Below, piece after piece: positions 140-9,978 of a stretch of DNA of 38,651 nucleotides (positions are counted from its first letter, which is position 1; each line of letters begins with the position of its first letter). A program made the position numbers and the translations under genes. The stretch covers positions 1 through 38,651 of the forward strand of contig JAFVDZ010000014.1 of assembly GCA_017478205.1 (NCBI GenBank), read 5' to 3'. A model generated the notes under the pieces. That model ran no database searches, had not been told where the DNA came from, and saw only the letters and a program-made list of their open reading frames with translations. This DNA comes from Spirochaetales bacterium (GTDB taxonomy: Bacteria > Spirochaetota > Spirochaetia > Sphaerochaetales > Sphaerochaetaceae).

Positions 140-907
140 TTAGTGACTCCTGTGTGCTAGGTATTCTCTCTTTCTGAGTCTTATGCGAACTACATCCGTC
201 AAAGTTCTGATAGAGTCTCTTACGATATGTACAGTTGTGCTGAAAACATCGTTCTTATAGACAACAGGCAGGGAAACAATCTTGAAATTGTAAAGTCGTG
301 CAATATAGAGATACTCCATATCAAAGGCAAATCTCTTCACCTTCTGAGCGCCTGCCAATGCTTTTGCACATTTTCTATTGAATCCCTTGAAGCCTGCCTG
401 GGTGTCCTTGAATGGGATTCCCAATATGACTTTTGTCGTCATGAAGCCGAACATGCTGACAAGGTGTCTTAGAAAGCTTGCATTTTCAGATCCACCTTCG
501 CTTCTTCTGTCTGCCAGTACAAAATCTGCCTTATTGGTTTTCAGCATATCGTACATCTGCTTGATGCAGGAAACATCTACAGGAAGATCTGCATCTACAA
601 AGATTATATATTCACCATTTGCATGAAGAATTCCTTGCCTTACAGCTTCTCCCTTTCCTTTGTTGGGGCTATATGAGACCTTTCTGATGTCTCCCCAGAC
701 ATGATTGATGCCGTTATTATCTCGTTGTTTGTCTTTTGTGGCTTGATCGATTAGCTTCTCGGTATCATCTTTGCTTCCATCGTTGACTGGTATGATTTCA
801 TAATTAAGGTCTTTCGAAATAAGGAAGGAGTCTATTCTTTGGATTGTATCAGCAATATGCTTCTGTGCATTATAGCAGGGGATAATAATACTCAAATCAT
901 ATTGCAA
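140..907 (-). CDS. family 2 glycosyltransferase, polyprenyl/dolichyl-phosphate sugar synthase type
   Basis: Cytoplasmic GT-A fold glycosyltransferase, likely moving a sugar from a nucleotide donor to a polyprenyl phosphate. Visible landmarks, numbered from the upstream ATG, are the N-terminal strand LSIIIPCYNA, the NDGSKDDT nucleotide-binding turn (~44-51), the DAD metal motif (107-109) in FVDADLP, and the DTQAGFKGF acceptor-loop motif typical of the Alg5/dolichyl-phosphate glucosyltransferase group. Start choice: an ATG exists at 911-913, but the strong GAGGAGG lies directly against it. A TTG at 905-907 lies 6 bases after GAGGAGG, so TTG is preferred (255 aa; 257 from the ATG). It is the first gene of a leftward unit divergent from the LicC-like gene. 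Sugar identity cannot be read from sequence. Confidence 0.85.
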   Translation of the reverse strand: MQYDLSIIIPCYNAQKHIADTIQRIDSFLISKDLNYEIIPVNDGSKDDTEKLIDQATKDKQRDNNGINHVWGDIRKVSYSPNKGKGEAVRQGILHANGEYIIFVDADLPVDVSCIKQMYDMLKTNKADFVLADRRSEGGSENASFLRHLVSMFGFMTTKVILGIPFKDTQAGFKGFNRKCAKALAGAQKVKRFAFDMEYLYIARLYNFKIVSLPVVYKNDVFSTTVHIVRDSIRTLTDVVRIRLRKREYLAHRSH

Positions 908-913
908 ATACAT

Positions 914-1226
914 CCTCCTCTATGAACAAGATAACAACGATATGAGACTTCATTTTATTTGTCTTTGTTCATCTGTGTTTAAATATATTTTGATTTTGTG
1001 TTCATTATTGATTTAAAATATCTTTTTACTGAACAATAATCCGATAGATATGCTATCACCGGATGAAAATATCATCAATAATTATCATGTAATTTTGTTT
1101 GAGGGAAATGAAACAAGTCTTTAAAGCAACATTTAAATAACTATTGTCGGTATTGAAACTTGCTCTTCCTTTTTTCCTTGAGTTTGCTGTAGACTCGTGA
1201 TTGGAAAATATTGGGAGATTAGGGCA
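914..1226. other. AT-rich divergent intergenic region
   Basis: This 313-base gap separates the leftward GT2 gene from the rightward LicC-like gene and should hold both promoters. It is strongly AT-rich, and no convincing ORF, RNA gene or paired -35/-10 can be singled out. A GGGAG at about 1211-1215 provides the ribosome-binding site of the LicC-like gene. Confidence 0.5.
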
Positions 1227-1928
1227 ATGATTGCAATTCTTATGGCAGCAGGACTTGGAACCAGAATGGCTCCTTTGACAGAAACTGTAGCAAAGCCTCT
1301 TGTAAAGGTGCATGGAGAGGCCATGATCGAAACCATCATAAAGGGGCTTAGAGAAAGGGTTGACCATATCTATGTAGTTGTTGGCTACAAGAAAGAGCAG
1401 TTTGAAAGTCTTGAAGAAAAGTATCCAAATCTCACATTGATCGAGAATACAGAGTTCATGACGATAAATAACATCTCTTCAATTCATGCAGCAAGAGATG
1501 TGATGGGGACAGATGACTGCTTCATCTGTGAAGCTGACCTCTATGTTTCAGATCCTTCGATCTTCCAAGCTGAATTGGATCAGTCCTGCTACTATGGAAA
1601 ATTTGTTCAGGGGCACTCTGATGACTGGGTATTCGAGCAAGATGCTTTTGGTAGGATAACTAGAGTAGGTAAGCACGGAGATAATCTTTATAACATGTGC
1701 GGGGTTGCTTTCTTCAAGAAGGATGATGCAGCGTTGATCCGTGATGCGATCGATGAAGCATACAAGCACAAAGGAGAGTATGAAAATCTCTTCTGGGATG
1801 ATATCGTTAACCAACAGCTTGATAAGCTTGAATTGACTGTACATCCAGTCAAGCATAGCCAGATAGTTGAGATTGATTCTGTTTCTGAGCTTGCTGTAGT
1901 AGATCCAGAATACTACAAATATAACTAA
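1227..1928 (+). CDS. licC: LicC-like CTP:phosphocholine (or related) cytidylyltransferase
   Basis: Cytoplasmic nucleotidyltransferase expected to make a CDP-activated alcohol such as CDP-choline from CTP and phosphocholine. The N-terminal AAGLGTRMAPLT is the nucleotidyltransferase signature and KPLVKV follows. NNISSIH, EADLY (metal), LFWDDIV and the C-terminal VEIDSVSEL track the pneumococcal LicC pattern over the whole 233 residues, the usual family length. The upstream TTG at 1197 would add ten residues before this motif; ATG 1227, preceded by GGGAG, is preferred. A LicC relative in Treponema denticola, PntC, acts on 2-aminoethylphosphonate, so the substrate could be a phosphonate rather than phosphocholine. 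No licA, licD or phosphonate gene is in the window. It sits convergent with the YidC-sulfatase gene. Confidence 0.85.
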   Translation: MIAILMAAGLGTRMAPLTETVAKPLVKVHGEAMIETIIKGLRERVDHIYVVVGYKKEQFESLEEKYPNLTLIENTEFMTINNISSIHAARDVMGTDDCFICEADLYVSDPSIFQAELDQSCYYGKFVQGHSDDWVFEQDAFGRITRVGKHGDNLYNMCGVAFFKKDDAALIRDAIDEAYKHKGEYENLFWDDIVNQQLDKLELTVHPVKHSQIVEIDSVSELAVVDPEYYKYN

Positions 1929-2048: not shown

Positions 2049-4769
2049 TTAAAGACCTTCAGGTACCTGTTGTTTCCAGTTCTCTGGGTTAAGGATATTA
2101 TCCTTTACAATGAACCATTCATCTTTCGTTATTGGGAACTTATATGGATTGACAGGAGGATCTGGTTCTTCTGTGCTTGTAACGTAAAAGCCATTCTCTT
2201 TTCCTTTCATGGTCAGTTCATTGCCTGTGTATGGGTTTTCTAAGCTATCGAGGACTCCATGGGCTGCAAGATATGGGACATCGCAGAGAGTCATAAAGTC
2301 ATTATTTATTACAAGTGGACTTCTCTGGTCGAAATCCTTCACAAGAAGCAATGCTTGATATCTGTCAACAGTATTTCTTCCGTCTGGAAGTTTTGGATTA
2401 TTTCCATCTGGATGCAGAGACCTAGAGCCATGGTCGGAGACGAAAATTATTCTTGTATTGTCATATACATCATTTCGTTTTAGATACCTTAACCATTCTG
2501 CGATGAATCTGTAACTAGCTGCATTCACACAATAATCACTTCGATTCTTGAATGGGCTATCATAGTTGCTATTATCTACTTCTTTACTGAAAACGTAATC
2601 TGGAGCCTGCAGTATGAAAGGTTCGTGAGTGAGATATGAGATGAATGCAGTATATGTACCATTATTATCTGTTATTCCAGTAAGGCGGGAAAGATTGTCC
2701 ATCAGGATATATTCCCTCATAAATGCAGGTGGTTCGTCATTATATGATAGATTTGGATTGATGGTATTGTAATAACGTCCAGCATCATAGAATGCCATCC
2801 TGACTGAAACAGGTAATAAGCGGAAAAGTGCATATCTTATGAGAGAGCATTCAAGAATTTTTGCAGCACCTCCCTCTCCTAGGTCATTATAGCCATGTTC
2901 CTTTTTCCATCTCTCGTTATATCGGTTTAGAGGGAATGTAACCTTTATTTCAGGGATATTCTCAAATGGAACATAAGATATATCTTCATAATTTGGCCAA
3001 GGTGCATTGACGATGAACGAGTTCATGCCATTTTTCGAGAACATGAGAGGTAACATTGAAATTGCTTCATTATGCTTTACTCTAAGTTCTGTATCTTTTC
3101 TGGTAGTACTTAGATTTTGAAGTGAATAGTCATAACCTCCAAATAGACAAGGTGTCCCATGAAGAGTTTTGTTACTAGCAGAAACAGTGTTTGGATAGAA
3201 AACAAATCCTTCAAATTCATCTCTTACATTAGGGTTTTCTTCTAGTATGTATGGTAGATATGAGCTTATTGCTCTATCCATCATGAAAACTATTACATTC
3301 CTTTCTCTCTTGGATAATTCAATAATTGGTTGCATTTCATCATCTGCTTCGACATCAGTAAGAGTTCTTTCATATATAGGAATGTAATCTTTATATGTTT
3401 TCTGAATCGACATTATCTTCATGAACGACAGCAGGGTAAGAGCAATGATCAAGATCAAGAATATAGGATTCATTCTTTTTACAAGCTTTGTTCCACAAAG
3501 TGCAATTGCAGCGATCAGGGAAGCAATAATGCAGAGTGTATTCATTTGAGTCATGAAATTGCTCTGGAAGAAGGTTCTTATATAATCTATTTCCAGCCTT
3601 ATCGAGACAACTCCATAATCTGCAGTGAATACAAACTCATTTATAAGGGTAGCAAAGACGTAGAAAAGAGTAATAAGCAGTACTGTGTTCTTGTACTTCT
3701 TTGGGAATAGAAAGTACAAGATCAGAGGCCAGGCCACACAGATTCCAACAGCCTGGGAGAATGTGATCAAAACAAATGATAGTGGTGAGGAATAAGGATG
3801 CAGGAAAGAAAAATCCACAGGTGAGGAAGCAATTAATGAGGAAGGAATCAACAGGCCCATCAAAAGAGCAAGCACAACTGAAAGAGAAATAAATAATTTT
3901 GTGCAGGTCTTTTCTTCACCTTCGAGCCACAGGAGAGTGTGATCATAGAAGAATCCCAATGGTTTTCTTATCAAATACCCAAGCGCAACAATGACAAAGA
4001 GGAGAGTGCCATAATTCATGATACTTCTACTCTTGGTGTACAGGTGGATTCCGTATACAAGACCAAAGGCCATAAGAAGGAAAAAGAAATTCCTAACTGG
4101 GTGCTTCTGTTTGTAGAAGATGTTCTTAACAAGGGAAAGAAAGTTGTTCATTGTCCAGTAGACAAGAAGACCTGCAGGAGAGTTGTATAGTATTACAAGG
4201 AAAATTGCAGCAAGCCCATAGATCTGAATCTTCTCCTTTAGAGGATGGCCCTTGGAATAGATAAATCCTGCAATACAGTTGAATGTAGTCATAAGGATTG
4301 GAAGAAGATTCAAAGTGAGTGGCCCAAGCTTCAAAAGTCCATCTGGAGAGCCTAGGTCATTGATGAATAGGAATGAATAACCTTTTAGGACAGGCAGGTT
4401 CGAAAGGAAGTTGTAGGCAGCAAAGAAGAACGGAATCTGGATGAGAATGCTGAAAGATGAACGAAGTGCATAGATAGGCCTATAGCCTTGCTGGCGATAG
4501 TAGGTCGAGAGGATCATGAAGCCTTCATCGCCCTTGAATACTTCCTTTATCATCTTCACTCTAGGTGCCATTTCCATGGTCTTCCTTCTTTCTATATCCT
4601 GCCAGTGCTCAGCAATTGCATATATTGGAAGAGTTACAAGAGTGATGAAGAAACTGAGACCAATTATTGTGTATCCCAAGTTTCCTGTGAACGTGAGGAA
4701 AGTGAACGCAAATTCAATTATCTCAGTAATTGGGAAAATAAATATGTTGTAAAGAATTTTTGAAATCAT
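2049..4769 (-). CDS. YidC/Oxa1-like domain fused to a sulfatase-fold phosphotransferase
   Basis: A 906-residue polytopic protein in two parts. Residues ~1-225 are YidC/Oxa1-like: helix at 32-51, charged cytoplasmic hairpin (52-100), QIPFFFAAYNFL (111-122) and the signature NSPAGLLVYWTMNNF (196-210). The Arg that lines the YidC groove five residues before the conserved Pro is Thr43 here. About seven more hydrophobic segments span 227-450. From ~490 an alkaline-phosphatase/sulfatase domain follows, as in LTA synthases and phosphoethanolamine transferases: VIVFMMDRA (Asp498), SASNKTLHG (candidate nucleophile Thr535), THEPF (His715) and FVSDHG (Asp779, His780). It probably transfers a phospho-group to a glycan on the outer face of the inner membrane. 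AAGGAG precedes ATG 4769, which starts one base after the stop of the TagF-like gene, so the two are translationally coupled. Substrate is unknown. Confidence 0.8.
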   Translation of the reverse strand: MISKILYNIFIFPITEIIEFAFTFLTFTGNLGYTIIGLSFFITLVTLPIYAIAEHWQDIERRKTMEMAPRVKMIKEVFKGDEGFMILSTYYRQQGYRPIYALRSSFSILIQIPFFFAAYNFLSNLPVLKGYSFLFINDLGSPDGLLKLGPLTLNLLPILMTTFNCIAGFIYSKGHPLKEKIQIYGLAAIFLVILYNSPAGLLVYWTMNNFLSLVKNIFYKQKHPVRNFFFLLMAFGLVYGIHLYTKSRSIMNYGTLLFVIVALGYLIRKPLGFFYDHTLLWLEGEEKTCTKLFISLSVVLALLMGLLIPSSLIASSPVDFSFLHPYSSPLSFVLITFSQAVGICVAWPLILYFLFPKKYKNTVLLITLFYVFATLINEFVFTADYGVVSIRLEIDYIRTFFQSNFMTQMNTLCIIASLIAAIALCGTKLVKRMNPIFLILIIALTLLSFMKIMSIQKTYKDYIPIYERTLTDVEADDEMQPIIELSKRERNVIVFMMDRAISSYLPYILEENPNVRDEFEGFVFYPNTVSASNKTLHGTPCLFGGYDYSLQNLSTTRKDTELRVKHNEAISMLPLMFSKNGMNSFIVNAPWPNYEDISYVPFENIPEIKVTFPLNRYNERWKKEHGYNDLGEGGAAKILECSLIRYALFRLLPVSVRMAFYDAGRYYNTINPNLSYNDEPPAFMREYILMDNLSRLTGITDNNGTYTAFISYLTHEPFILQAPDYVFSKEVDNSNYDSPFKNRSDYCVNAASYRFIAEWLRYLKRNDVYDNTRIIFVSDHGSRSLHPDGNNPKLPDGRNTVDRYQALLLVKDFDQRSPLVINNDFMTLCDVPYLAAHGVLDSLENPYTGNELTMKGKENGFYVTSTEEPDPPVNPYKFPITKDEWFIVKDNILNPENWKQQVPEGL

Positions 4770-4770
4770 T

Positions 4771-5985
4771 TTATTTACTCTCCTTCATATGTTCTTCGAG
4801 ATAATCGGCAATCTTGATTGCACTTTCTCCCTGGTTGGCCCAGCATTCTGTCCTTGCCTTGGCTCTTGCTTTTGAAAGCTCTTCGCTGTCAGCTGCATTT
4901 TTTATGATACTTTCGATATTTTTAAGATCTTCTTTTCTGAGTTCGATACCAAAGCTCTTCAATGATTCGAACTGCCAAAGCTGATATGGAATGTCATAGG
5001 CATCATAGATTCTGTTATCAAAACCTTGAGACAGGTAGATTACAGGTTTGTCAAAAACTAGAGTGTAGTCAAAGATGATACCAGAGAAATCTGAAATCAT
5101 TATGTCTGCTGTACTGAGAGAGTTATAGTTGTCGGGTGAGGTATCAAAAACTATATTTTTGCTGTCTTTGTATCTTTGTTTGAGACTCTCAATTAGATCT
5201 GTTTCTACCCTTAGAGATTGAGGATGAGGTCGCAAAATGACATTGAAGTTTGATTCTTCAAGTGGGTCAAGTAGCTCAGTGCCAAACCTAGAAAGCAAAG
5301 AGGAAGGACCCCAGGAAGGGGATACAAGAACAGTGAATTGATGTTCTTTTCTCTCATCCTTTTCACTCTTTTCTTTCAATATATCGATGTATGGACATCC
5401 TACTGTAACTAACTCCTTTTCCTTTAATCCTCTGAGTTTTTCAAGATACCTTATATCTCTCTTCTGATACTCTCCCGATAGGAGTACTGCATCGAAGTAA
5501 TCTAAGCCAAAGACACGGTAGGTTGCAGTATCACTTGGCATATGGACTAGGTGGATATATCTTTTTACACCTTTTGACCTCTTCATCTGATATACATCGA
5601 GGCCAGGTGTTGTCATTAGGACATTGTCTGCCTTTATGAGATTCAGTTTTGCAAAGGCCTTGTTTCCTTCTCCGATGAATTCAGATTTGAACCCATCAGC
5701 TTTTTTCTCAAGAAGTGGATCCTTGTCATAAGAAGTCAAATATGTAAAAGGGACTTTCCTTTTGATGAGCTCATTGACTACGGGAGTAAAGAGATTCATA
5801 TATTGCTTGCCTTCGTTGTAGATGACAAGCTTTTCATTTGCCATGGAAACTGAACCTTTTCCGAGCAGTATCCCTTTTGATTTGATCCAAATTGTCCTAA
5901 ACGAAAAATAAAGTGTTGCAACAACACCAATTACTACGGAAAACAGCATTGATCCTGTGCCTGGATCGATATATAGAGCAATCAC
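4771..5985 (-). CDS. CDP-glycerol glycerophosphotransferase-like (TagB/TagF family) protein
   Basis: Membrane-associated transferase of the teichoic-acid polymerase family, expected to use CDP-glycerol or a similar CDP-alcohol. The N-terminus carries the YIDPGTGSMLF motif plus one hydrophobic helix (to ~30), often seen ahead of surface-glycan transferases. The C-terminal half has the family landmarks SPSWGPSSLL, RPHPQSLR and the ADIMISDFSGIIFDY block that binds the CDP moiety. Length (404 aa) fits a single catalytic domain. It starts at GTG (5983-5985) with AAAGG eight bases upstream, is coupled to the YidC-sulfatase gene, and is divergent from the GT-D gene. Wall teichoic acid is not expected in a two-membrane cell, so a lipoteichoic-like glycolipid or capsule is the likelier product. 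Confidence 0.8.
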   Translation of the reverse strand: MIALYIDPGTGSMLFSVVIGVVATLYFSFRTIWIKSKGILLGKGSVSMANEKLVIYNEGKQYMNLFTPVVNELIKRKVPFTYLTSYDKDPLLEKKADGFKSEFIGEGNKAFAKLNLIKADNVLMTTPGLDVYQMKRSKGVKRYIHLVHMPSDTATYRVFGLDYFDAVLLSGEYQKRDIRYLEKLRGLKEKELVTVGCPYIDILKEKSEKDERKEHQFTVLVSPSWGPSSLLSRFGTELLDPLEESNFNVILRPHPQSLRVETDLIESLKQRYKDSKNIVFDTSPDNYNSLSTADIMISDFSGIIFDYTLVFDKPVIYLSQGFDNRIYDAYDIPYQLWQFESLKSFGIELRKEDLKNIESIIKNAADSEELSKARAKARTECWANQGESAIKIADYLEEHMKESK

Positions 5986-6134: not shown

Positions 6135-6959
6135 ATGAGTAAATGGCCACCAAGAATTCTTACTAGAGAGGAAACAATAGAGCATATCGAAAGAACAGGA
6201 TGCTCCTTCAGTCGCTTTGGAGATGGAGAACTCTCGATGATGCTTATGATGCCTGTGTCTGGATTTCAGCGAATCAGCTTCAAGCTGAGACGTGAACTTA
6301 TCAATGTTGCGAGAGCAAAGGATGATGGTTTTCTTGTCTGCATTCCAGGTCCAATCATTGATGACTCCTACTATACAGACCTTGCAAGGAAGTGGTGGCA
6401 GAACAATATAAAGAAATGGGGATGGGCGTGGAAGCACTACTTTGCCGATGGCAAGGTATATGGAGATACAGAGATAACTCGTCCCTGGATCGATGTTCAA
6501 AAAGAAGATATTGCAGAGCTTTCGTTTACCAGAATCAAGGCACTATGGAATGATAGAGATGTTGTGATGGTAGAGGGTGAAAGATCGAGAGTTGGGGTAG
6601 GAAATGACCTCCTTGATAATGCTCAATCTGTTAGAAGGATTATATGCCCATCAAAGAGTGCCTACAGCTACATAGATGAGATAGAAAAGGAATGCAGAAA
6701 ACTACCTAAGGATACTCTGTTCCTTTCTGCTCTCGGAATGAGTGCAACCTGTCTGTCATATCGCCTCTTCAAGGCGGGGTATCAATCATATGATATTGGG
6801 CACATGGATGTAGAACTTGAATGGTATAGAATGAGAGCAACCAAGAAGGTTCCGATCAAAGGTAAATTTGTCTGCGAAGCAGGTGGCAACCGCTCTTTTA
6901 AAGAGATGGAGATCGACAGAAAGTATACAGATGAGATAATTGCAAGGGTTGGTGTATGA
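6135..6959 (+). CDS. GT-D fold glycosyltransferase (former DUF1792)
   Basis: Cytoplasmic glycosyltransferase of the GT-D class, known from streptococcal adhesin glycosylation, where the domain uses a DxE metal motif. That motif is seen here as SRFGDGEL (Asp30-Gly31-Glu32) after the usual N-terminal helix (EETIEHIE). The family C-terminal block LSALGMSATCLSYRLFKAGY followed by SYDIGHMDVELEWY is complete. Length 274 is typical. The next gene starts inside its stop codon (ATGA overlap), so the two enzymes are made together. In this locus it probably adds a hexose to the surface glycan. Donor and acceptor are unknown. Confidence 0.85.
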   Translation: MSKWPPRILTREETIEHIERTGCSFSRFGDGELSMMLMMPVSGFQRISFKLRRELINVARAKDDGFLVCIPGPIIDDSYYTDLARKWWQNNIKKWGWAWKHYFADGKVYGDTEITRPWIDVQKEDIAELSFTRIKALWNDRDVVMVEGERSRVGVGNDLLDNAQSVRRIICPSKSAYSYIDEIEKECRKLPKDTLFLSALGMSATCLSYRLFKAGYQSYDIGHMDVELEWYRMRATKKVPIKGKFVCEAGGNRSFKEMEIDRKYTDEIIARVGV

Positions 6960-7870
6960 AGAAGCGTGAATTCCCTTTCTCTATCTACTTCTACCGCTTC
7001 GCTGCAAAGTATTCCTATGCTTTGCTTCTTCATAAAAGACTACATCTGAAGAAGTACAGCAATATCCTCTCTTTCATGGAAAAGGATTGCTCTTCTATCC
7101 TTGATAAGTACAGAAATATGGATGTAACTCTTTCTGCTCCCATTCCAAAACAGCTGTGGGTCCTCTGGTGGCAGGGAAAGGATAATCTTCCACCAATTGT
7201 GAAAGAGTGCGTCAAGAGAATGGCTTCACTTGAGAATTACAATCTTACCATTCTCGATAAAGAGAATATCTCATCCTATATAGATCTTTCAGATGTACTT
7301 CCTCTGCTTGAATCTGGTGAACTTAAAATCCAGTTCATGTCAGATATAATTCGCATGAGAATTTTAAGAAAGCATGGTGGTTTCTGGATCGATTCAACAA
7401 TGCTTATCATGGATGAGAGTTTCCTTGATAGCATTGTTGAAAAGTATAGCTTCTATTCAATAAGACTTAAGGATTTCGAAGAGTGGTGGAATGTTTCAGC
7501 TGCGCGCTGGAGCGCCTACTTCTGGGCAACGAGCAAAGATAATCCATTCTTTAGCTATATGGATGATGCTTTTACTTACTTTGCATTGAAACACAAAACC
7601 ATCATCGATTACTTCCAGATAGATTTCACTGTCCGTCTTGGTTATGAGAATATTGCTTGGATCAGAAAACTTATCGACAGTTTCCCATATTACGAAAATG
7701 ATATGTTCTATCTTGATAAGGTGTCTTCCAAGGTGCTCACTGAAAAGAAAAGAGCACTGATCGACAGTGCTCCTATGTATAAACTCAATTGGCGAAGAAA
7801 ACTTAAAACGCTTGAAGGCAAGACAACTTGTTATGAGTATGCCATCAGGCGCCTTGGTCTATTTGATTGA
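6956..7870 (+). CDS. capsular-polysaccharide-type glycosyltransferase (Caps_synth/GT32-like)
   Basis: Glycosyltransferase of the Caps_synth group, resembling GT32 enzymes. Landmarks: PKQLWVLWWQGKDNLPP (~64-80), the family start of the catalytic domain; KIQFMSDIIRMRIL (~124-137); and RKHGGFWIDSTML, corresponding to the GG-(I/V)-x-D-x-D metal site, with Asp146 and then Ser-Thr rather than a second Asp. It overlaps the GT-D gene by four bases and ends convergently, with 12 bases shared with the barrel-protein gene. It likely transfers a sugar in building the same glycan as its partner; the sugar is not predictable. Confidence 0.8.
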   Translation: MKKREFPFSIYFYRFAAKYSYALLLHKRLHLKKYSNILSFMEKDCSSILDKYRNMDVTLSAPIPKQLWVLWWQGKDNLPPIVKECVKRMASLENYNLTILDKENISSYIDLSDVLPLLESGELKIQFMSDIIRMRILRKHGGFWIDSTMLIMDESFLDSIVEKYSFYSIRLKDFEEWWNVSAARWSAYFWATSKDNPFFSYMDDAFTYFALKHKTIIDYFQIDFTVRLGYENIAWIRKLIDSFPYYENDMFYLDKVSSKVLTEKKRALIDSAPMYKLNWRRKLKTLEGKTTCYEYAIRRLGLFD

Positions 7871-8500: not shown

Positions 8501-9913
8501 TTAAAGATTATAGATCAGGGAATCTAGTGTTTCAGCTCTATCGTCAAGGTACTCTTTCAATGAGTATGCATGTCCTTCGATAGTCTGGAACTGACCGCCA
8601 AGGGCACTGATCCTGTTGTCATAGATCTTTCCGTTTGCATTCCAGCTTCTTCTGATTTCTTCTGCCTTGTTATCAATGTAGGTAGCAACATCAACAACGA
8701 AATCTCTTCCAGTGGAATCAGTATAATCACCTGTATTGGCCTTGTAGCCATCTGCTTCGTATCTATACTTGATAGTTCCAAAATTTCTGAGCTGGAACCA
8801 GTAATTTTTCAAGATATCAATAAACCCATCATATTCCATGAAAGTTTCATAGTACCAATCATCTGTGAGGAAAAGATCGTGGTATGGTTCAAGGAAGGTC
8901 CACATATCGAAGTCCCAACCTGGACCACAGTAGAGTTTAGTGTCTCCATTCTTGTTCAGCTGATAGAAGTATACCGAGAAAGGTAATTCAGGGTCAGATG
9001 TACCAACAATGTTTACAAGGATCCAGAATTTTGCAAATGAGTCGATATCAAAAGCTTCTTTTATAGCATCCCAGCTGCCACTATTGAGTACTCCTTCTTT
9101 TTCTTCAAGTGCACTCTTGAATCTTGCAACCTCTGGTGCATACTCGGCGTCAGAAAGCTTTACATCTTTATCATAGTCATCTTTGTAGTCATCAGCTTCA
9201 GGCCATTTTGGCATTACAGGTAAGTTGTATTCTGCTGTCCTAAACTTTGGATCTTCATCATAGTGGTCATCAATACTAAGGAAGAACCCGGATTCACCAA
9301 CCTTTTTATTGAATTCAAGGAACTTGGTGATGTTCTTGGTTGCATCTGTCATCAAGTATGTGCCCTTGTAGTCATTATTGAGATAAAGGTCTACAAATTC
9401 ATGGTTTACAGTCCACTGGAAATTGAGAGGTGGAGCACCAGCTCCCAGATTATTTCCCATCATTGCAAAGCTGATATCATTTCTCATCATTGAAGCTTCG
9501 AGAGCGTTTGCAAGAAGGGTAACTCGCTTTATTTCTCCATTTGTGCTGTTGTCTACATAATTTGTATAGGTAAGGTCGGAGAAGAAATTAACAGCTTCTC
9601 TCTTTTTTGGAAATTTCAAGTTATATGGTCTCTTTGTTCCTGTATTGGTTGTGTTTCCCCTAAGACGGAAATCAAACCCTGATAAAAGCTCTTCCTTGTT
9701 GTCTTTGTCGAATCCATTTGTCTTAGAACCATATTCATAGAATCCTGCAGAAGCGTCGATATACTCTGTCTTTGTCAGCAGAGCTTCGTCTGTTTCAATA
9801 ACAACACGAGCAAGTCCTGTGTCAGGACTGTCCTCTAGGGAATAGGAGTCGTATTTACATCCTACAAATAGAATTATTGTAAATACAATGCATAAGGGTA
9901 GTAGTTTTCTCAC
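8501..9913 (-). CDS. CotH-kinase family lipoprotein
   Basis: Extracytoplasmic protein of the CotH family, whose spore-coat members are atypical protein kinases. Domain landmarks: RLRGNTTNTGTKRPYNLKF, ALEASMMRNDISF, VDLYLNNDYKGTYLMTDA and the catalytic-region CGPGWDFDMW. Start choice: GTG 9911-9913 gives a lipoprotein signal, MRKLLPLCIVFTIILFVGC, with Cys19 in the lipobox, and has GAGG nine bases upstream. A GTG 33 bases further upstream would put eleven polar residues before the signal and has no ribosome site. From 9913 the protein is 470 aa. It is the first gene of an operon with the barrel protein at 7859-8485. Target protein unknown. Confidence 0.85.
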   Translation of the reverse strand: MRKLLPLCIVFTIILFVGCKYDSYSLEDSPDTGLARVVIETDEALLTKTEYIDASAGFYEYGSKTNGFDKDNKEELLSGFDFRLRGNTTNTGTKRPYNLKFPKKREAVNFFSDLTYTNYVDNSTNGEIKRVTLLANALEASMMRNDISFAMMGNNLGAGAPPLNFQWTVNHEFVDLYLNNDYKGTYLMTDATKNITKFLEFNKKVGESGFFLSIDDHYDEDPKFRTAEYNLPVMPKWPEADDYKDDYDKDVKLSDAEYAPEVARFKSALEEKEGVLNSGSWDAIKEAFDIDSFAKFWILVNIVGTSDPELPFSVYFYQLNKNGDTKLYCGPGWDFDMWTFLEPYHDLFLTDDWYYETFMEYDGFIDILKNYWFQLRNFGTIKYRYEADGYKANTGDYTDSTGRDFVVDVATYIDNKAEEIRRSWNANGKIYDNRISALGGQFQTIEGHAYSLKEYLDDRAETLDSLIYNL

Positions 9914-9978
9914 GTCGCTTTTCCTCAAAATATATATTTGCGACACAACAATAATATATATTTTATTTTTGATAAAGC

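Follow-up and report, generated by a model that had tools for sequence, protein, structure and literature searches.

YidC-family proteins are protein insertases, and we know of no biological pathway for the lipid scrambling that members of this family carry out in vitro. Such scrambling was reported for E. coli YidC, Oxa1 and Get1 (PMC10491306), and scrambling by the YidC family is also mentioned in a further study (PMC7618853). Two other groups of enzymes bear on the locus considered here, namely the lipid-donor phosphotransferases EptA/MCR and LtaS and the CDP-polyol phosphotransferases of the TagF/TagB/TarL type. In the window, by which we mean the whole 38,651-nucleotide stretch of a Spirochaetales contig that was analysed, a single gene joins a YidC-like module to an enzyme resembling the former group, and its neighbour encodes a protein resembling the latter. 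An initial sequence-only reading stated that no characterised protein with this architecture was known, and in agreement with this our search of the open-access literature found no paper on a YidC-sulfatase protein.

The fusion protein and its distribution

The frame of the fusion is single and uninterrupted from an ATG at position 4769 on the minus strand (Table 1), as the sequence-only reading, which gave no strand, had claimed for its 906-residue protein, and both Pfam domains scored above their curated cut-offs: PF02096 (60KD_IMP) at residues 32–220 (E-value 1.6e-21, 77.4 bits versus a cut-off of 35) and PF00884 (Sulfatase) at residues 490–785 (1.7e-7, 31 bits versus 25). The residue numbering given earlier was likewise right for Thr43, Pro48, Asp498, Thr535, Asp779 and His780, and the NSPAGLLVYWTMNNF signature lies at residues 196–210. 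None of the NCBIfam YidC models reached its cut-off, the best being TIGR03592 (76 bits versus 84.3) and the equivalogs scoring far lower. An AlphaFold2 model, made with 105 homologues in the alignment, had a mean pLDDT of 91.2 and a pTM of 0.89 (91.3 and 0.89 for residues 247–906 alone), with the joint at residues 220–270 modelled less confidently (pLDDT 64–84 per ten-residue block). In this model the linker helices span residues 224–246 and 251–284; the middle region has five predicted TM helices (286–315, 330–354, 357–379, 404–426 and 430–474), and the part resembling EptA/MCR and LtaS spans about residues 286–906. The loop charges are consistent with a joint in the cytosol and an enzyme on the outside.

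Table 1. Features in and around the fusion gene, in window coordinates
Feature	Position	Strand	Remarks
YidC-like / EptA-LtaS-like fusion protein	2049..4769	-	906 aa, ~12 TM helices; PF02096 + PF00884; AF2 pLDDT 91.2
YidC-like module, residues 1-222	4104..4769	-	amphipathic helix, five TM core, cytosolic hairpin; groove position 43 = Thr
Linker and TM region, residues 223-474	3347..4103	-	leads to outside catalytic domain (AF2, loop charges)
Alkaline-phosphatase-superfamily domain, residues 484-906	2052..3320	-	invariant residue set, Foldseek, VIA
TagF-like partner	4771..5985	-	N-terminal TM with YIDPGTGSM, then PF04464 glycerophosphotransferase domain; ends 1 bp before fusion
LicC-like NTP (cytidylyl) transferase	1197..1928	+	convergent with fusion; possible CDP head-group source; relatives near other fusions
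Family 2 glycosyltransferase	140..913	-	possible member of same surface-glycan locus (Pfam)
Two divergent surface-polysaccharide genes	6135..7870	+	GT-D fold PF08759; Caps_synth PF05704

A Foldseek search matched the N-terminal part to E. coli YidC (6al2) over 214 columns (rmsd 3.7, 23% identity, probability 1.00). The observation that the groove Arg of YidC, five residues before the conserved Pro, is replaced by Thr43 extended to the whole family: the fusions have N, S, T, Q or F here, with R or K in 0 of 111, whereas the position is charged in 12 of 12 canonical spirochaete YidCs (K in 11, R in one), including a Lys in the canonical YidC of the source genome itself, and it is Asn in all three stand-alone copies of the module described below. 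Position 103 of the fusions is R or K in 109 of 113, and Y96, P113–F115, D143, P157, T161, N164, Y204, W205, N209 and K215 are invariant; this many invariant core residues argues that the module is under strong selection. In a phylogenetic tree the canonical YidCs were split from all fusion and stand-alone modules by a branch of 5.05 changes per site with 100/100 support.

In the catalytic half D498, T535, H715, D779, H780, K811 and D830 were invariant (113/113 fusions), a set that contains the four residues previously put forward as a plausible metal site in an alkaline-phosphatase-superfamily domain. From what is known of the family we take Thr535 to be the nucleophile and Asp498, Asp779 and His780 to be the acidic and Asp-His metal ligands; a Thr in place of the formylglycine Cys/Ser presumably marks a phosphotransferase of the EptA/LtaS type and not a sulfatase. 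A formylglycine sulfatase could be rejected, as Thr535 is invariant and lies in the context T-x-x-G-x-P, not C/S-x-P-x-R. Foldseek placed full-length MCR-1 (9nww), EptA (5fgn) and PbgA/YejM near the top, together with LtaP and LtaS. Its alignments run through both the TM and the outer domain of MCR-1, EptA and PbgA, but the TM part superposes poorly (rmsd 13–20) and is thus at most a possible relative of the EptA TM domain. With VIA-align the catalytic domain alone gave Z-scores of about 20 (rmsd 3.5–4.5, 276–327 residues aligned), and as these were similar for LtaP, PbgA, EptC, LtaS, phosphonate monoester hydrolase and sulfatases, choline sulfatase included, the fold alone does not pick one of these enzymes. 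The earlier assignment of this half as phosphotransferase-like is supported, and it resembles the lipid-donor enzymes EptA/MCR and LtaS.

The source genome has four PF02096 proteins, three of them fusions and the fourth a canonical YidC (587 residues, L009:2993-4756), so that confusion of the fusion with the canonical protein can be dismissed; each of its three PF00884 matches is a fusion. Eight of 60 relatives had clear counterparts of the fusion, and at least 80 loci turned up among the 84,980 species genomes scanned, nearly all covering the whole protein, with hosts among the matches listed in Treponema, Sphaerochaetaceae, other spirochaetes, Lachnospiraceae, Oscillospiraceae, Coriobacteriales and one Actinomycetes MAG. 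In a sample of 296 Spirochaetota genomes about 68 matched at E-values of 1e-80 or less, fragments included. The 113 fusions compared throughout are full-length or nearly so and come from Spirochaetota, Bacillota and Actinomycetota. It had been cautioned that the joint might reflect a missed stop or an assembly join, or be unique to one contig. However, the same joint occurs in all 113 homologues across many genomes, among them isolates (e.g., Butyrivibrio sp. MB2005 and Coriobacteriales OH1046) and the single-contig genomes G017 and G059, which excludes both a missed stop and an assembly join as its origin; being found in three phyla, it is also neither rare nor restricted to one contig or to Spirochaetota. 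One genome (G056, L037-L040) has four strongly diverged fusions of about 950–1134 residues, that at L039 on a very long branch, and G128:C20 and G366:C236 hold paralogues with frameshifts or a stop, possibly pseudogenes or phase-variable genes.

A two-gene unit, its neighbours and its variants

The protein encoded directly upstream of the fusion matched PF04464 (Glyphos_transf) at 49.9 bits versus a cut-off of 22.1, a partial match covering residues 179–323. Proteins of this TagF-like type conserve RPHP and SDFSG motifs, and YIDPGTG is invariant in 58 of 58, within a set of 59 of which 57 were picked by a looser form of that very motif and the other two end at a contig end. The TagF-like gene is on the same strand as the fusion and overlaps it or lies within 90 bp in 42 of 46 cases. 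Of 198 genomes of the class, 37 encode the catalytic part, 36 the TagF-like protein and 34 the YidC-like module; 36 genomes had both enzyme and TagF-like protein, one had the enzyme only and 161 had neither, so that the TagF-like set lies entirely within the enzyme set (Fisher p = 8.5e-39, the genomes being taken as independent though they are related). This pattern persists over some 19 genera, and the exceptions (G413, G395 and G403) are draft genomes; in G413 and G395, at least, the matches lie at contig edges. That the fusion and the TagF-like gene form a conserved, near-obligate two-gene unit, of which the sequence-only reading made no mention, is well supported, and at many clostridial loci these two genes stand with no glycan genes nearby. 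A third, shorter TagF-like match, a 290-residue frame covering query residues 119–399 (G000:C37:15708-16550), lies apart from all listed fusions.

The genes nearest to the fusions (n = 103) included 20 NTP transferases, 11 class I/II aminotransferase domains, at least some of them joined to an NTP transferase, four PEP mutases and three BCCT choline-family transporters, as well as glycosyltransferases. PEP mutase lies near the fusion at seven loci (L030, L046, L048, L050, L051, L056 and L117) and TagD at three (L035, L131 and L134). These neighbours suggest that the products of the surrounding genes may be CDP- or CMP-activated head groups, such as those of glycerol, choline and 2-aminoethylphosphonate, a pathway to the last of which, through PEP mutase and PntC, was described in Treponema (PMC6697681). 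As the neighbours vary, the activated head group would vary too while the TagF-like/fusion pair stays the same. An NTP transferase fused to a PLP domain of the class I/II aminotransferase type, as at L133:8820-10709 and L043:10057-11883, is frequent beside the unit and may make CDP-ethanolamine-like donors. Elsewhere in the window, positions 8501–9946 encode a CotH-kinase-family (PF08757) lipoprotein-like protein of this spirochaete-type genome.

Homologues with separate domains, which the sequence-only reading had foreseen as an argument against the fusion, do exist in three genomes (G370, G415 and G416). In each, the YidC-like module is a gene of its own (226–229 residues; e.g., L131:11216-11905) directly after the TagF-like gene. 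The catalytic half is encoded separately at another place in the locus in G370 (721 residues) and G416 (739 residues), and in G415 it seems to be the following gene, truncated at the end of the contig. In G370 and G415 the cytidylyltransferase of the locus is TagD; in G416 it is a fusion of an NTP transferase with an aminotransferase. Domains encoded by separate genes of one locus in some genomes and by a single fused gene in others classically indicate joint function, and the retention of the separated parts in the same locus therefore strengthens the functional link between the two domains. As the stand-alone modules nest among the fusions in the tree, where branches are long, we suggest that they may have arisen by fission of a fused ancestor. 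Adjoining a locus with a complete stand-alone module there is also an 867-residue fusion (L134:11029-13632) whose YidC part is without most of the cytosolic hairpin (profile positions ~55–95).

Many loci have two to five fusions, five at L085, for a single TagF-like gene. Each of the 30 within-locus pairs was more similar in the YidC module than in the catalytic domain, at a mean of 78% versus 53%. Two tandem fusions (L034:5318-10670) are identical at third codon positions over codons 41–200, and this identity drops to about 40% just beyond the joint, a sharp recombination boundary; the same step is seen at L088 and L095, and while the exact identity at L034 could partly reflect assembly, the copies at those two loci are not identical. 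When third positions were compared only at codons with the same residue, a synonymous excess of more than 0.15 for the YidC module was found in 10 of 30 within-locus pairs versus 0 of 200 between-locus control pairs. We interpret these patterns as gene conversion or an exchange of modules, by which the YidC part would stay the same as the catalytic part diversifies, and a constant module with diverged enzymes would fit one shared lipid donor serving several acceptors.

A possible lipid relay and its alternatives

The predicted catalysis of the outer domain and its association with the TagF-like protein are well supported, and the enzyme probably attaches groups that contain phosphate to the cell surface. 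We also think it likely, with considerable confidence, that the two genes encode a unit for phosphotransfer at the surface, with the YidC-like module serving either its TagF-like partner or the product of that partner. Our main reading of how this might work, to which we assign a probability of only about 0.4, is a relay in which the two proteins form a machine placing phosphate-linked head groups on a surface glycan. In the cytosol the membrane-anchored TagF-like protein would move the head group from a CDP or CMP carrier to a membrane lipid, the neighbouring cytidylyltransferase setting whether this is glycerol phosphate, choline phosphate, an amino-alcohol phosphate or 2-aminoethylphosphonate. 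The YidC-like module, devoid of the insertase groove charge, would carry or scramble the head group of the lipid across the membrane, and on the outside the EptA/LtaS-like part would take it onto Thr535 at the metal site and hand it to a glycan acceptor, a different one for each paralogue. The direction of flow, the lipid intermediate, its movement by the YidC-like module and the glycan acceptor are the steps that we infer. The proposal of the sequence-only reading that the YidC domain may handle the lipid-linked substrate of the transferase gains indirect backing from the invariant TagF-like partner, from the constancy of the YidC module between paralogues and from the scrambling of lipids by E. 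coli YidC in vitro (PMC10491306). To our knowledge, however, the characterised members of PF04464 pass polyol phosphates on to polymers or to lipid-linked sugars, and none makes a phospholipid. The absence of nearby glycan genes at many clostridial loci also counts against the relay. Further, lipid scrambling appears general among insertases and so gives no specific pointer to a lipid role here.

Nearly as good a fit is a docking role, although we consider it somewhat unlikely, in which the YidC-like domain moves nothing and recruits the TagF-like protein through YIDPGTGSM, thereby coupling the inside and outside transferases. Docking is equally compatible with the homogenised YidC module of paralogues that have a single TagF-like protein in common and with the strict co-occurrence of that protein with the enzyme, and it would also agree with the invariance of YIDPGTG and with the position of the stand-alone module directly after the TagF-like gene. 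However, the polar residues T161, N164 and N209 are invariant within the membrane core, and suggest a working groove rather than a mere surface contact.

Another reading is a dedicated insertase, acting on the one N-out TM segment of the TagF-like protein or on the fusion's own second half. The PF02096 fold would suit this role, as would the TagF-like protein, which has a short N-tail and one hydrophobic segment at its N-terminus and so resembles the type of substrate that YidC handles, but the groove charge is gone in 111 of 111 fusions while the same genome retains a canonical YidC with Lys, and the module is made with each paralogous enzyme copy, a behaviour for which we know of no precedent among insertases; we regard this role as improbable. 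Still more doubtful is a lipoteichoic-acid-type polymerase or primase, whose outer domain would build a polymer from phosphatidylglycerol independently of TagF-like chemistry: the structural matches to LtaS and LtaP and the TagD genes beside some fusions point that way, but the neighbouring head groups vary (phosphonate, choline, amino-alcohol) and up to five paralogues per TagF-like gene better suit acceptor-specific transfer. Least probable by our estimate is a phosphodiesterase or phosphatase trimming surface or lipid phosphates with no transfer, as although phosphonate monoester hydrolase and choline sulfatase have the same VIA Z-score, the nucleophile is Thr as in EptA and LtaS and the nearby head-group biosynthesis genes point to addition, not removal.

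Taking the lipid relay further, we tentatively speculate, with somewhat less confidence than in the relay itself, that one branch of the Oxa1/YidC superfamily may have given up protein insertion in favour of dedicated lipid translocation for the decoration of surface glycans, coupled to a cytosolic TagF-like loader and an outside transferase, exchangeable catalytic modules evolving behind a constant YidC module kept so by gene conversion. The component families are each known; their combination, the partner gene and the pattern of constant and variable modules we did not find in the open-access papers searched, and the system would thus be a new use of the YidC fold that lends itself to testing. 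The genetic and physical tie between a YidC-like domain and phosphotransferases of the lipid-donor type, present in many gut and oral bacteria, offers a direct way to ask whether lipid movement is the actual function of a protein of the Oxa1 superfamily. The unit could also account for the attachment of phosphonate, choline or glycerol phosphate to surface glycans in spirochaetes and clostridia.

Comparison with known systems

The TagF-like partner shares the PF04464 domain and the RPHP and SDFSG motifs with the CDP-polyol phosphotransferases TagF, TagB and TarL, and differs from them in its partial Pfam match, its N-terminal YIDPGTGSM membrane segment and its near-obligate pairing with the fusion. 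The Ppm/Ppd/PntC clusters of Rice et al. 2019 (PMC6697681) have counterparts beside several fusions (L030, L050, L051 and L056), where PEP mutase, Ppd and a PntC-aminotransferase are also found; that study names LicD-like and glycosyltransferase genes, YidC and sulfatase being unmentioned. Like the fusion, EptA/MCR enzymes have a TM domain and, after it, a sulfatase-fold domain on the outside that carries a Thr nucleophile and an acidic/Asp-His metal site. The fusion, however, is only 10–14% identical to them, has the YidC-like module and is linked to a TagF-like partner. LtaS and LtaP belong to the same superfamily and have the same topology, matching the fusion with Z-scores of 19.6 (rmsd 4.0, 298–300 aligned) and 20.5 (rmsd 4.2, 301 aligned), respectively, but the known enzymes are without a YidC part or a TagF-like partner and again share 10–14% identity. 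Finally, the fusion module has the fold, the five-TM core, the cytosolic hairpin and the C-terminal signature of the YidC/Oxa1/Alb3 insertases (PF02096), yet it has N, S or T for the groove Lys/Arg, an R or K at position 103 and a clade of its own, and unlike these insertases it is attached to an enzyme or paired with a TagF-like protein.
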